In this document: piece by piece, positions 2,733 through 9,589 of the stretch
How positions within the stretch are numbered: the stretch's first letter is position 1
How the letters are laid out: each line of letters starts with the position of its first letter
Assembly: GCA_900313295.1 (NCBI GenBank)
Contig: OMQS01000005.1
Location: 1-23,525, forward strand
Reading direction: 5' to 3'
DNA: 23,525 bases
DNA from: an uncultured Eubacteriales bacterium
GTDB lineage: Bacteria; Bacillota; Clostridia; Oscillospirales; Oscillospiraceae
Notes under the pieces: generated by a model
The model's database searches: none
What the model saw: the letters and a program-made list of their open reading frames with translations, nothing else
Told to the model about the DNA's origin: nothing
Made by a program: the position numbers and the translations under genes

Positions 2733-3146
2733 TTATTTTTTCATCATGCGCACCGCCGCCTGTCGGGCTATGGCACGATGCAGGGCGATCTGGGCACGCT
2801 TCATGTCCCACCCGCCGGTCTTATCGCCAAGCCGCTCTCTGGCGCGGTGCTCCGCCGCCTCGGCGCGGGGCAGGTCGATGTTTTCCGCCCGCTCCGCCGT
2901 GCGCACCAGCAGGGTCGCCTCGTTGTGCACCACGTTGGCCACGCCCAGATCCACGGCGATGAACGCCTCAGTTCCATCGCTTTTTCGGGCGGTAACCACG
3001 CCGCTTTCAACGGCGCCCAGCATGGGTGCATGATCCTGCAGCACGCCTACGCTGCCACCGAAAAGCGGCAGCTCCACATAGCTGACCATGTCGTCATAGA
3101 CGCTGCCGCCGGCGGTGGCGATCTCCAGATGGATCCCGTCTTTCAT
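2733..3146 (-). CDS. atpC: F1 ATP synthase epsilon subunit
   Basis: A 137-residue central-stalk subunit that binds gamma and the c-ring and can inhibit ATP hydrolysis. Residues 1-83 form the beta-sandwich domain, including FGGSVGVLQDHAPM; the rest is the C-terminal helical hairpin. At the junction, residues 90-95 read IDLPRA. This matches the I(L)DxxRA ATP-binding motif known from Bacillus epsilon subunits, so ATP sensing is plausible. The ATG at 3146 is preferred over an in-frame GTG at 3152. GAGG sits 5 nt before this ATG and overlaps the end of atpD (stop 9 nt upstream). It is the last gene of the operon and ends at the bidirectional terminator. Confidence 0.93.
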   Translation of the reverse strand: MKDGIHLEIATAGGSVYDDMVSYVELPLFGGSVGVLQDHAPMLGAVESGVVTARKSDGTEAFIAVDLGVANVVHNEATLLVRTAERAENIDLPRAEAAEHRARERLGDKTGGWDMKRAQIALHRAIARQAAVRMMKK

Positions 3147-3155
3147 AGGCACCTC

Positions 3156-4547
<1,392 letters not shown>

Positions 4548-4550
4548 CTA

Positions 4551-5423
4551 TCACTTTTTTGCCTTTTTCAAGGCGTTGGCGCCGCCGACGATCTCGGCGA
4601 TCTCGGTGGTGATGGCGGCCTGACGCACACGGTTGAGCTGCAGACTCAGGTCGTTTATCAGCTCGGTGGTGGCGTCGGTGGCTGCGCTCATGGCGGCCAT
4701 GCGGGAAGCCTGCTCGCTGACCTTGGCCTCCAGCAAAACGGAATAGACCATGTTGTTCAGATAGAGCTGCACCATGTTTTCCAGCACGCTGCGGGCATCC
4801 GGCTCAAAGATATAGTCGTTGCCGGCCTCCTCCCGCTCCTGCGGCTGAAGCTGTGCAGGAAGAAGCTGCACCTGATCAGGCACCTGCTGCAGAGCAGAAC
4901 GGAAGCGCTGGTAGACCAGATGGATCTCATCTGCCTCGCCGCTGAGGTACAGGCGCTTGAGATAGTCCGCCACCGGCAGAGCTTCTGCCATGTCGGGGGT
5001 GTCGCTCAAAGCGTCGAAGGTGTGGCACACAGGCAGGCCGGACTGGGCGATGATGTCCCGCCCCCAGCTGCCGCAGACCACCACGGTGCAGGGTCTCTCA
5101 TCCGCCTGCACCAGCTCCTGGGCATGGCGCAGCACCGCGTGGTTATACACGCCGCAAAGGCCACGATTGCCCACGAAGAGGACATAGCAGACCGTGCGAA
5201 CCTCCTTGCGGGGAAGCAGAAACTCGTTATCATAGCCGGCGTTTTCTCCGGCCATAAGCTCGGCGAGAACGTGCTGGCTCCGCCGGGCAAAGCTGCGGAT
5301 GCCGCTCAGACCGCTCTGGGTGCGGTGCAGCTTGGCGGAAGCCACCATTTTCATGGTCTTGGTGATCTGCTGCGTACTTTTCACGCTCCGGATACGGGCG
5401 CGTATCTCACGCATACTGGCCAT
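4551..5423 (-). CDS. atpG: F1 ATP synthase gamma subunit
   Basis: A 290-residue rotor shaft that sits in the alpha3-beta3 hexamer and couples c-ring rotation to catalysis. The N-terminal helix REIRARIRSVKSTQQITKTM (residues 5-24) and the C-terminal helix RQAAITTEIAEIVGGANAL are the two strands of the coiled coil and match the family closely. The central Rossmann-like domain holds VGNRGLCG. Length is typical. The ATG has AAGGGGGG 8 nt upstream. The gap to the fused upstream gene is 33 nt, the longest in the F1 part of the operon, but no separate promoter was seen there. Confidence 0.97.
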   Translation of the reverse strand: MASMREIRARIRSVKSTQQITKTMKMVASAKLHRTQSGLSGIRSFARRSQHVLAELMAGENAGYDNEFLLPRKEVRTVCYVLFVGNRGLCGVYNHAVLRHAQELVQADERPCTVVVCGSWGRDIIAQSGLPVCHTFDALSDTPDMAEALPVADYLKRLYLSGEADEIHLVYQRFRSALQQVPDQVQLLPAQLQPQEREEAGNDYIFEPDARSVLENMVQLYLNNMVYSVLLEAKVSEQASRMAAMSAATDATTELINDLSLQLNRVRQAAITTEIAEIVGGANALKKAKK

Positions 5424-5456: not shown

Positions 5457-7733
5457 TCAAAAGGACTCCTTAAAGCTCTCCAGTGTTTTGCGCAGAGAGG
5501 CCAGCATATCGGCGGGGATCTTCTTTCCCTCGCAGATCACGTCCACCAGCTCCGGCATGGTCAGCTTCACATGCGCCACCACCTCCCGCTCAAAGCGGGA
5601 CATATCGGCAAGCGCCACATCATCGGCGTAGCCCTCGTTGGCGGCAAAAATGGCGATGACCTGATCCTCCACGGACTTGGCATCGAACTGGTTCTGCTTG
5701 AGCAGCTCCGTCATGTGCTGGCCGCGGCACAGGGTAGACTGGGTGGCCGCATCCAGCTCGGAGCCGAACTGGGCGAAGGACGCCAGCTCGCGGTACTGCG
5801 CCAGATCGGTGCGCAGACGACCCGCCACCTGCTTCATGGCAGGCATCTGGGCGGCGCCGCCCACACGGGACACGGACAAGCCCACGTTGATGGCCGGCCG
5901 GTTGCCGGAATGGAACAGACCGGTCTCCAAGAAGATCTGACCGTCGGTAATGGAGATGACGTTGGTGGGGATATAGGCGGAAATGTCGCCCGCCTGGGTC
6001 TCGATGATGGGCAGGGCGGTCATGCTGCCGCCGCCGGTGGCCTCGTCCAGCCGAGCAGCGCGCTCCAGCAGACGGGAGTGCAGATAAAACACGTCGCCGG
6101 GGTAGGCCTCGCGTCCGGGGGGACGCTGGAGCAGCAGGGAAATTTCGCGGTAGGCAGCCGCCTGCTTGCTCAGATCGTCATACACGATGAGGACGTCGCG
6201 GCCCTGATACATGAAGAACTCGCCGATGGCCGCGCCGGCATAGGGGGCGATATACAGCATGGGGGCAGGCTCCGAAGCGGAGGCGCACACCACGGTGGTA
6301 TAGTCCATGGCGCCCAGCTCCGTCAGCTTGCGCACAACGTTGGCCACCGTGGACTCCTTCTGGCCGATGGCCACATAGATGCACAGAACGTCCTTGCCCT
6401 TCTGGTTGACGATGGTGTCCAGGGCAATGGCCGTTTTACCGGTCTGGCGGTCGCCGATGATAAGCTCACGCTGGCCGCGGCCGATGGGAACCAGGGCGTC
6501 GATGGCCTTGATGCCCGTTTGCAGCGGGACAGTGACGCCCTGCCGGTGCAGCACGCTGGGGGCGGGGCTTTCCACCGCTCGATAGCCGTCGGGGGTGATG
6601 GGACCCTTGCCGTCTATGGGACGGCCCAGTGCGTCCACCACGCGGCCACACATACCATAGCCCACGGGGACTTCGATGATGTGCCCCGTGCGGCGCACGA
6701 CGTCGCCCTCCTGAATGCCGGCAAAATTGCCCAACAGGACAACGCCCACGTTATCCTGATCCAGATCCATGACCATGCCGCGCAGGTCGCCCTCGAACTC
6801 CAGCATCTCGCCGGCCATCACGTCCGCCAGACCCGCCACACGGCAGATACCGTCGGACACGCTGATGACCTCGCCCACCTGATAGTTGTCTATGGAGCTG
6901 TCGGCGGAAGCGATGATCTGCCGCACGTTCTCCAGAACGGGCTGACCGTCCTTGCAGCCGTGATCCGCATCACGAACCAGACGCTCCAGACGGTGAAGGG
7001 CAGAGCCGTCATACACGGTGTCGCCCACGCGCAGGCGCACGCCGGCCACCAGACTTTCGTCCACCTCGCTGCGCAGGTCGATCAGCTCACCGGCAGGAAC
7101 GTCCTCCCCCGCTTCCTTGCAGGCGGCGGCGAAGATCGCCGTCAGCTTCTGCCGCAGCGATGCAAGCTCTTCCTCCGGCAGCGGCTGGGCGGCGGCAACG
7201 GTCACCGCCAGCTTTTTCCCCTCGGACAGGGTGAGAAGGTCGCTGGGCTGGGCGGAAACCGAATGGTCCATATTTTGAATGAAATCGTCCACCAGCGCCT
7301 TGCGCCGGAGGGCGTACTCGTCTTTTTGCAGCGCCTTGCCGGTCGCCTCCGCCACCTGACGGAGAACCTGTGCGCTGACCTCCTCCTGCATGATGGAGCG
7401 AAGCTGCTGCTCACGCACAGCGGCGCTCTGGCGCAGCACGTTGGCCGCCTCCTGGCTGCTCTCGGCAGCGGAAACGCTGTTTTCCTCCACCTGGCGGCGG
7501 GTGCCGGCCAGCAGCTCGTCTTCCCGCTGCTGCGCCTGTGCCTTGTCCTTGCCTATGCGGTCTTCAAGGGCAGCGGCGTTCTCCTCCGCAGCCTTCGCCT
7601 CGTCCAGCGCTGCGGCGATCTTATCCCTGCGCTCCTTAAACATCCGCGCGATCATCTTGCGGGTGATGAAAAACAGGGCGCCGAAGAGGATGACGAAGTT
7701 GATGACGGCAAATAAGAAATCTTTCAAATGCAT
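5457..7733 (-). CDS. Fused ATP synthase stator b - delta C-terminal domain - alpha subunit
   Basis: One 758-codon frame holding three F-ATPase parts. Residues 1-158 are b-like: one membrane helix (about 4-26), then a long charged helix ending [10 protein letters not shown], as b subunits do. Residues 165-254 match the delta C-terminal domain, with [13 protein letters not shown], then [20 protein letters not shown] and LHRLERL. Residues 280-758 are a full alpha subunit, with Walker A GDRQTGKT (427-434), DVLIVYDD (513-520) and the arginine-finger stretch SVSRVGG (R623). The delta N-terminal six-helix bundle is missing. No stop, frameshift or strong internal ribosome site marks either junction. 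The ATG follows GAGG by 5 nt, and the upstream b gene ends 7 nt away. The protein should sit at the membrane as peripheral stalk plus F1 head. Mycobacteria have a b-delta fusion; I know of no described b-delta-alpha fusion. Domain calls are confident; stoichiometry is open. Confidence 0.95.
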
Positions 7734-7740
7734 TTCAGCC

Positions 7741-8181
7741 TCACTGCTCCTCTCTGCCTGCGTCGCCGCTCAGAAGCTGCTGCGCCAGGGCGGAAACGAG
7801 CTGCGGCATCTGCTCTCCGGCTTCTGCCTGCGCCTGCTCCCGCTCACGCGCTATGCGCCCCTGCGCCTCCTGCAGCGCCTGATCCACCTCGGTCTGCGCG
7901 TTTGCCAGCACCCAGGTGCGCTCTTTATCATCGGCTGCTTTTCCCTCTGCGAGAAGCTGCTTGGCCTCCTGGCTGCGCTCATTCCAGCTTTCACGCAGCG
8001 CAGCGTCGCTCTCGTCCTTCTTCTGCTGCGCCTGACGGGCCTTTTCGTGCCCCTCGTCAATGGACGCCTGACGGGCCTCCATGAATCGCACCAGCGGATC
8101 AAACAGGAACTTTTTCAGCACAAACAGCAACGCAAAAAAGCAAACGATGGTCCAAATCACTTCTGACACGTTAATGCTCAA
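7741..8181 (-). CDS. atpF: ATP synthase F0 subunit b (stand-alone)
   Basis: A 146-residue peripheral-stalk subunit: one membrane helix at about residues 6-26 ([20 protein letters not shown]), then a long alanine-, glutamine- and glutamate-rich helix predicted to form the b dimer coiled coil. The start is TTG at 8181, supported by AGGAGG 8 nt upstream; the next candidate (GTG, codon 5) is too far from that site. It ends 7 nt before the fused b-delta-alpha gene, whose own N-terminus is a second b-like segment. The stalk is therefore probably a heterodimer of this b and the fused b', as in phototrophs (b/b') or mycobacteria (b and b-delta). Confidence 0.93.
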
Positions 8182-8218: not shown

Positions 8219-8449
8219 TCAGATCTTGCCGATCAGCATAAAGGCGATGAGCAGGCCGTAAATGGTGAGAGCCTCCATCAGAGCCAGAGCGATGATCATG
8301 CTGGAACGGATGCTGCCGGCTGCCTCGGGCTGGCGAGCCATGGCCTCCATGGCCTTGGACGCAGTGAGACCCTGTCCGATAGCGGGGCCGATGGTGCTCA
8401 GAGCCACAGCCAGAGCGGCTGCCAGGGCGATGATTGCGGATGAAGTCAT
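8219..8449 (-). CDS. atpE: ATP synthase F0 subunit c (rotor ring)
   Basis: A 76-residue two-helix hairpin that oligomerises into the membrane rotor ring. Helix 1 contains GPAIGQG (residues 21-27), the polar loop contains ARQPE (38-42), and helix 2 carries the ion-carrying glutamate E59 in MEALTIYG. The start is the ATG at 8449, with GGAGG 8 nt upstream; the in-frame TTG at 8464 lies inside that site. Q26 and Y64 match sodium-binding c-subunits, but the residue after E59 is alanine instead of the serine or threonine found there. Coupling-ion identity is therefore unclear. Confidence 0.96.
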
Positions 8450-8496
8450 AGTTGTTTCCTCCAAAAATTATTGAATGTATTTTTTTAATTATTATA

Positions 8497-9168
8497 TTAG
8501 TGTTCCTCGCCTACGGCTTCCTCGATATAGATGGACAGCAGCATGGTGAACACCACCGCCTGGATCAGACAGAACAGCAGGCTCAGCACCTGCATGACAA
8601 GGGGCAGCACCAGGGGGAAGATACCGGAAAGCTGCTCGGTGACCATCTCCTCGCCGTAAAGGTTGCCGTACAGTCGCAGCGCCAGGGAGAAGGGGCGCAC
8701 CACCTGCTCGATGAGGTTTAGGGGCAGCATCAGGATAAAGGGGGAAATGAAGGTCTTTAAGTAGCCCAGCACACCTCTGCGCTTCACGCCCACGACGTGG
8801 GTGGTGAAGAAGGCGATGACCGCCAGACCCGCCGTGGTGGACAGGTTGGCCGTGGGCACGGCGAAGCCGTGGCCGGCGCCCGGCAGAAGACCGGAATAGT
8901 TGCTCACCACGATGAAAATAAAGAACGTCGCCATGATGGGGAAATACCGGCGGGCATTGTCGCGCCCCATGGTGCCGGTGAAGTAGTCCTGCAGCTTGGC
9001 CACTGCCATTTCCGCTGCGCTCTGGATGGGGCCGGGCACGGCCTTGAGCCGACGGGTGGCCAGCCACGACACCAGACCCAGCACAGCTATGATGACCCAC
9101 ATGGTGACAACGGTCTTCGTCACCTCCAGCGGGCCGATGGAAAACAATACGTTACTGGTCGCTTCCAT
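8497..9168 (-). CDS. atpB: ATP synthase F0 subunit a
   Basis: A 223-residue polytopic membrane stator subunit that forms the ion half-channels against the c-ring. The essential arginine is R165 in LALRLYGN, equivalent to E. coli R210. PTANLSTTAGLAV (105-117) in the middle and the tail YIEEAVGEEH also fit the family. It is shorter than E. coli subunit a (271), as in many Firmicutes. The ATG at 9168 is preceded by GAGGTGA at an unusually long distance (about 10 nt or more), so translation may rely on coupling to atpI, which ends 17 nt upstream. Confidence 0.96.
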   Translation of the reverse strand: MEATSNVLFSIGPLEVTKTVVTMWVIIAVLGLVSWLATRRLKAVPGPIQSAAEMAVAKLQDYFTGTMGRDNARRYFPIMATFFIFIVVSNYSGLLPGAGHGFAVPTANLSTTAGLAVIAFFTTHVVGVKRRGVLGYLKTFISPFILMLPLNLIEQVVRPFSLALRLYGNLYGEEMVTEQLSGIFPLVLPLVMQVLSLLFCLIQAVVFTMLLSIYIEEAVGEEH

Positions 9169-9185: not shown

Positions 9186-9512
9186 TCAATTCCTACCGTC
9201 TGTTGACTCGGGATTATTCCGGGGGTCTTTCAGCTGCTCTTTGCTGAGCTTGAGGTTCAGCAGTATGCCCACAAGGGACAGACCCACCGCCGTGCCGACG
9301 ATGGTGCCGTAAAACGGGAGGGGGAGCAGGTTCCTGGTGAAATACACCACCGCCAGCGCCGCGATGTTCACAAGCATCCGCAAAATACTGGCCGCCATGA
9401 TGGCATTGGCGCTGTTTTTCCGGACGCTATGGCGCGTGATCTGTGCGTTTGCGAAGGACACCAGCGCTCCGAACACAAAGCCGACTCCTCCGGCCAACAG
9501 GTACATTTCCAC
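9186..9512 (-). CDS. atpI: AtpI-like small membrane protein, first gene of the atp operon
   Basis: A small, poorly conserved membrane protein at the usual atpI position; AtpI proteins assist assembly of the c-ring or ion supply. It has about four hydrophobic segments (LAGGVGFVFGALVSF, a central IMAASILRMLVNIAAL region, then FYGTIVGTAVGLSLVGIL) and a charged C-terminal tail. The start is uncertain. A frame extends up to GTG 9575, but the promoter -10 box at 9590-9595 would leave almost no leader. GTG 9512 is chosen because AGGAG lies 10 nt upstream; ATG 9551 has no ribosome site. Identification rests on position and hydropathy more than on motifs. Confidence 0.75.
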   Translation of the reverse strand: MEMYLLAGGVGFVFGALVSFANAQITRHSVRKNSANAIMAASILRMLVNIAALAVVYFTRNLLPLPFYGTIVGTAVGLSLVGILLNLKLSKEQLKDPRNNPESTDGRN

Positions 9513-9589
9513 GGGCAGTTTGCTCCTCTCATCCGTTCCGCTTCCCGCCATCGGCAGACGCAGGGCGCTGAACACAACATTACAAATTT

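Follow-up and report, generated by a model that had tools for sequence, protein, structure and literature searches.

A b′–δCTD–α fusion protein in clostridial F-type ATP synthases points to a possible three-stalk architecture

The 23,525-nucleotide stretch of DNA analysed here (the window), from an uncultured Eubacteriales bacterium, encodes an F-type ATP synthase in which a b-type stator arm (b′), the C-terminal domain (CTD) of δ and the α-subunit form one continuous polypeptide. The fusion is real and widespread. The N-terminal domain (NTD) of δ is missing from the chain, a separate b gene lies immediately upstream, and on the evidence of sequence comparison the enzyme is probably an F-type synthase with three peripheral stalks, each α bearing its own anchored arm.

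The fusion gene (positions 5457..7733, minus strand) begins with an ATG that carries a Shine–Dalgarno-like stretch (duplex energy −6.5 kcal/mol) and extends over 758 codons plus stop with zero internal stops, giving a calculated mass of 82.1 kDa. Its b′-type arm (residues 1–158; 7260..7733, minus strand) matches PF00430 (ATP-synt_B) at residues 6–135 (E 4e-08) and is predicted to fold as helices 3–89, 94–135 and 138–158. Hydropathy places a single transmembrane anchor at residues 6–24 (7662..7718, minus strand): the best 19-residue segment scores 2.58 at residue 6, the one strongly hydrophobic segment within the first 160 residues, and the maximum from residue 61 onward is 1.34. The δ/OSCP CTD occupies residues 173–256 (6966..7217, minus strand), a piece that covers CTD positions only in each of the models PRK13430, TIGR01145 and PRK05758; the Pfam OSCP match runs from 88 to 253 (E 1.3e-07). 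A linker and the N-terminal helix of α follow (residues 257–285; 6879..6965, minus strand; aligned to chain I of PDB entry 9jc1, model helix 266–275) and lead into the α core (residues 286–758; 5460..6878, minus strand), which comprises the β-barrel (286–350), nucleotide-binding (407–622) and C-terminal (629–754) domains (PF02874, PF00006 and PF00306). The α-subunit model TIGR00962 (atpA) aligns with residues 267–758 and scores 778.2 bits versus a curated cut-off of 484.45, which places the chain among F-type α-subunits. The predicted structure of the whole chain has a mean pLDDT of 70.6 and a pTM of 0.63, with residues 571–626 below 50; the δ CTD is modelled as a strand–helix–strands–helix fold at 175–257 (block pLDDT 77–88 up to residue 250). 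The original prediction, made from the sequence alone, of a single 758-codon b–δ(CTD)–α frame with intact α motifs is borne out by the open reading frame (ORF), Pfam and TIGR00962, and its domain limits (1–158, 165–254 and 280–758) differ from the structure model by at most about 10 residues. The absence of the δ NTD, the separate b gene and the consequence for stalk stoichiometry go beyond it.

A search of protein databases for single proteins combining b, δ and α found them in number. With window residues 1–275 as query (E up to 1e-3, scoring limited to the 7,991 candidates with the most words in common), 647 proteins matched, and each of the 120 listed carries all five Pfam domains at a length of 756–761 aa. 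Using the N-terminus of G055, a distant member, as query gave 1,114 proteins, a set that may overlap with the first; among the 120 listed, 116 are 724–789 aa long and four are shorter (500–668 aa). OSCP is present in 60/60 aligned members and ATP-synt_B in 55/60. The matching database proteins are annotated plainly as ‘subunit alpha'. The closest named record, the metagenome-assembled ‘uncultured Oscillibacter sp.', has an operon identical in layout.

Among related genomes, the full fusion span lies in an open frame in 14 of the 60 searched (the window's own counted), and contig ends cut it in two more. One of the 14 (G017) has an assembly gap just upstream of the fusion, within b; an apparent quadruple b–b′–δ–α fusion of 895 aa in this genome was rejected because its b part contains undetermined bases. 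A strong F-type α match is lacking in 18 of the 31 other members of the window's genus, including G003 (97% complete) and G008 (100%), which makes the distribution of the operon within the genus patchy. Elsewhere in the order the fusion was found in at least 17 of 394 genomes, from families f1, f18, f19, f20 and f23, a count to which the genus members add. Outside the order, searches of the class and phylum, which would miss weaker or unlisted cases, gave no triple fusion among the 76 genomes listed for the class (E 1e-185; 391 searched) besides the split case G832 described below, and none among the matches listed for the phylum (398 searched, 322 matched).

Operon layouts around α were compared at 66 loci and one more, and were assigned to types A, A′, B and C from ORF lengths and matches, type C being the triple fusion. 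The window derives from a metagenome-like assembly (198 contigs, 77% complete), as an artefact of sequencing or assembly, or a decayed gene, might; such an origin is refuted by the hundreds of independent proteins and contigs, by a fused frame that is uninterrupted in 27/27 type-C genes compared, with neither stop nor frameshift between the domains, and by dN/dS values below 1, and we give it virtually no credence. These values, which are rough owing to high dS, were obtained by comparing the window with G009, G018 and G013, and amount to 0.31–0.51 for b′, 0.37–0.44 for the δ CTD, 0.09–0.12 for α and 0.27–0.65 for the δ–α linker. The b′ and δ parts thus change faster than α, which counts against a three-stalk enzyme. 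Taken with the conservation of key residues in the a- and c-subunits (see below), the comparative evidence indicates that the fusion is functional, in line with the earlier view of a working enzyme.

The fusion lies on the minus strand in the classical gene order a–c–b–(b′–δ–α)–γ–β–ε, and the operon surroundings are normal, as originally described: Pfam and NCBIfam identify genes for a (8497..9168; 223 aa, LRLYGN arginine motif; PF00119), c (8219..8464; PF00137), b (7741..8181; 146 aa; PF00430, E 4e-15), γ (4551..5423; PF00231, TIGR01146), β (3156..4538; TIGR01039, 800 bits) and ε with both of its domains (2733..3152; PF02823 and PF00401), all on the minus strand. A small ORF upstream of a (9186..9575, minus strand) has no Pfam or NCBIfam match and corresponds to atpI by position only; relatives occupy the equivalent position in most type-C operons. 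The separate b, with which the fused b′ arm presumably pairs, is spaced 7 nt from the fusion, and such a gene is present in 28/28 type-C operons with a readable upstream region. Its product is 138–152 aa long in type C (except for a single 212-aa ORF whose start is doubtful) versus 159–194 aa in all other types, a shortening that would be expected if b′ alone now bears the δ-binding end.

The arginine motif of a and the glutamate of c are kept in 29/29 readable type-C operons. The c motif of these operons is EALTIYG or a near form, which we take to resemble that of proton enzymes, whereas type-A operons of the order mostly carry ES/ETTGIY-like motifs; the coupling ion has possibly switched between the canonical and type-C operons of the order. 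The genome of the window also encodes V-type ATPase A- and B-subunits on another contig (G000:C13; L003, L004), and may therefore have an ion pump besides the F-type enzyme.

Between the b′ arm and the δ CTD there is no room for the δ NTD, which would require about 100 residues. Whole-genome searches with the Pfam OSCP profile returned exactly one match in each of 24/24 genomes. In five canonical genomes the match covers profile positions 1–172 (to within 3 positions); in the 13 fusion genomes, 8 of which are at least 94% complete, no second δ was found and the sole match is the fused domain. This match starts at profile position 93 or later in 9 of the 13 and reaches further N-terminal in four (position 19 in the window, 35 in G011, 74 in G001 and 80 in G018). 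We read the N-terminal extension in these four genomes as b′ coiled coil; a reduced helical remnant of the δ NTD may alternatively persist there. The conclusion on δ rests on Pfam, and the δ HMM used for the operon survey had four sound seeds of five, one being out of frame. The δ NTD is absent from the fusion chain, with no other copy in 13/13 fusion genomes searched, which is the state expected of a multi-stalk enzyme.

F-type synthases are characterized by one peripheral stalk and one a-subunit, a textbook constant that together with the c ring fixes the number of ions per ATP. This one-stalk rule was broken in 2025 by a laboratory construct (Ueno et al. 2025, PMC12229609), and it is this construct, the triple-stalk Bacillus PS3 FoF1, that the window's protein resembles most. 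In a search of all PDB sequences, 9jc1 chain I ranks first (residues 181–758 to 10–576, E 8e-204) and aligns with one gap only, of 3 residues, at the δ–α junction; the three 9jc1 chains also rank 1–3 in a Foldseek search with the predicted model. Ueno et al. argue that the δ NTD, located on the threefold axis, limits the stalk to one, and that every F-type enzyme described before theirs had a single stalk. Deletion of the δ NTD and fusion of the remainder to α gave enzymes with up to three stalks and three a-subunits (mean two stalks) and an H+/ATP ratio of 5.8, ions per turn being the product of c-subunit and a-subunit numbers; stalks were often lost, and the authors call for stably bound ones (PMC12229609).

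Like the engineered δΔN–α FoF1, the natural protein joins an NTD-less δ collinearly to the N terminus of α in one chain. The natural protein, which has become fixed in a clade, differs in having a covalently linked b′ arm that brings a membrane anchor of its own, alongside a short b encoded separately, whereas the engineered enzyme holds b homodimers non-covalently and has a shortened ε. Ueno et al. also mention natural δ–α fusions without the δ NTD, in Acidaminococcus fermentans and two other sequences, and suspected natural multi-stalk cases, so the concept is already in print (PMC12229609). The Acidaminococcus protein and the type-B enzymes described below share with the window the loss of the δ NTD and the fusion of the δ CTD to α; type B has no fused b. 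The earlier statement that no b–δ–α subunit had been described holds for the open-licence PMC literature searched, where, as in the available sections of PMC12229609, no report of a covalent addition of b to δ–α was found; it needs qualification in that NTD-less δ–α itself had been engineered and noted in Acidaminococcus.

F1 holds three α-subunits, each of which would bring its own membrane-anchored b′ arm, giving up to three stalk arms. A single F-type α is present in 14 of the 17 listed fusion genomes, and with b′ anchors on all three α-subunits and no second α in these genomes, three arms are the simplest outcome. Each arm would pair with a separate b to form three b:b′ stalks around one α3β3 head, from which the symmetry-breaking δ NTD is gone, and these could hold up to three a-subunits on the c ring. 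If ions per turn are reckoned as Ueno et al. do, the ion/ATP ratio would then reach at most threefold the value for a one-stalk enzyme whose c ring is equal. The three-stalk enzyme could therefore make ATP even when the proton-motive force is very low or, in reverse, use ATP to drive large numbers of ions against a weak force. Stalk loss of the sort seen in the engineered enzyme would also be prevented by the covalent attachment of b′.

The same chain could instead support one working stalk, a single arm pairing with b and a while the remaining two rest unused against F1 or the membrane. Three of the 17 listed fusion genomes do encode a second F-type α, and the precedents of PMC12229609, namely the universal single stalk before the engineered enzyme and the frequent stalk loss within it, agree with such an arrangement. 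The domain thought to enforce a single stalk is nevertheless absent, room would in any case have to be found for three b′ membrane anchors on each F1, and b adjoins the fusion in every readable operon, all of which makes one working stalk rather unlikely.

A post-translational cut of the chain into b′–δ and α, yielding in effect a one-stalk, N-ATPase-like enzyme, would fit the variable 257–285 linker, with its dN/dS of 0.27–0.65, and the organization of N-ATPases, in which δ is absent or fused with b (PMC11738941, PMC5706428). The window shares this δ–b fusion, and TIGR03321, the N-ATPase b model, matches its residues 9–255 (E 1e-15) and so spans the whole b′–δ part (6930..7733, minus strand); the same model covers all of this part in G018 and G054 and most of it in G035. 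Cleavage is improbable, however: it leaves the open frame of all 27 genes unexplained, has no known protease site to act on, and would still yield three b′–δ pieces. Membership of the N-ATPases themselves was rejected, since α scores 632.1 bits with TIGR03324 versus a cut-off of 750.5 and the gene order differs from the β–ε–X–X–a–c–(bδ)–α–γ order of these enzymes (PMC11738941), in which α is not fused (PMC11738941, PMC5706428). N-ATPases also lack a separate δ, and might be multi-stalk too.

Free α could also arise if translation began internally, in which case arms would be borne by only a part of the α-subunits. Start codons occur between δ and α in 25 of the 27 genes, some with Shine–Dalgarno-like stretches (−10.3 kcal/mol in G018, −9.3 in G004, −7.6 in G409 and −7.3 in the window), and an ATG at residue 306 is common to all 27 but lies inside the β-barrel. 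Across residues 241–298, on the other hand, start codons stay below 40% of the 27 genes in every alignment column, and the stretch 257–292 is free of them in G055 and G415 (for G029 and G035 this comparison used manually placed start points, which do not coincide with start codons). With no start codon conserved between δ and α, internal initiation is unsupported and appears very improbable.

The three-stalk reading is thus favoured by collinearity with 9jc1, loss of the δ NTD, the shorter b and the lack of a conserved internal start; it is weakened by the second F-type α in 3 of 17 listed genomes, the mean of two stalks in the engineered enzyme and the moderate confidence of the model. It predicts a b′–δ–α band of about 82 kDa in place of a free α. 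A bolder form, which we advance only tentatively, is an obligatory multi-stalk enzyme in a gut bacterial lineage, with three b′–δ–α, three b and three a around one rotor and all three stalks kept attached by the covalent link; its ion/ATP ratio would equal the c-subunit number, exceeding several-fold that of all F-type enzymes measured, and it might make ATP far below the usual proton-motive threshold.

Other δ–α arrangements bear on how the fusion arose. Separate δ and α (type A) were found at 13 loci in the order and 17 in the wider phylum, and a δCTD–α fusion without fused b (type B) at 16 in the order, three in family f53 and one outside the order (G832). Of the 16 type-B operons of the order, 10 have δ assigned by Pfam, HMM or alignment and six by an extended N-terminus together with a match starting inside δ; type-B ORFs measure 571–616 aa versus 735–767 aa for the triple fusion. 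In five further genomes (G367, L103:3125-5167; and G237, G334, G181 and G258, with loci L104, L105, L106 and L107) a δ with an apparent NTD is fused to α (668–697 aa). Fusion by itself accordingly does not require loss of the δ NTD, which speaks against the three-stalk reading. Single variants include two tandem δ CTDs fused ahead of α (G134, L102:4041-6068; 675 aa), a free 72-residue δ CTD gene before a separate α (G051, L059:4917-5135) and a layout of no clear type (G041). The f53 fusions (L137, L138 and L139; 597–600 aa), from a different order of the phylum, are perhaps of independent origin. G012 (L048), a member of the window's genus, has a type-B enzyme instead of the triple fusion, which suggests operon replacement or transfer.

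Mapped on phylogenetic trees, all from searches of the ‘quick' kind, the triple fusion falls in one clade. In the tree of β, a gene outside the fusion, the 27 type-C rows are grouped with an SH-aLRT of 99; in the α+β tree type C is again one clade, sister to a clade of type-B and full-δ–α enzymes (SH-aLRT 99). The branching of type C relative to the δ–α clade lacks resolution with β alone, and since α is itself the fused part, a shared pull on α could favour their joining. A constraint uniting all δ–α fusions in one clade, f53 included, is not rejected (AU p 0.292). In G832, from another order (L159, minus strand; G832:C32:56417-58636), a single b lies in frame with δCTD–α, separated from it by one TAA and a few codons, and the OSCP match covers profile positions 101–172 only. 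Its sequence likely pictures the state before the triple fusion, in which case type C could have arisen by copying of b and loss of one stop.

Two other systems invite comparison. The mycobacterial b–δ protein likewise fuses a b arm to δ beside a separate second b-type subunit, but its δ keeps the N-terminal region and has an extra helical bundle, its α is separate and one stalk is seen (PMC8617483); the window, with α fused and δ incomplete, falls outside this type. V/A-type ATPases have two or three peripheral stalks built of E and G heterodimers, and the stalks of the window's enzyme are likewise predicted to be heterodimeric, yet these ATPases use different subunits and belong to another family (PMC6131620), whereas the window combines an F-type head with F-type stalk parts.

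What is new here is the covalent b′ on a δΔN–α, itself a kind of protein previously represented by an engineered construct and by briefly mentioned natural examples. Hidden under the plain annotation ‘subunit alpha' and conserved in one clade across five families, b′–δ–α represents a large, independent and stronger natural case, in which the stalk arm is covalent with α and the stalk-limiting δ domain is gone. Natural multi-stalk F-type enzymes, and what they would gain for low-energy lifestyles, become a directly testable question, and the bacteria that carry the fusion may run a three-armed energy machine.
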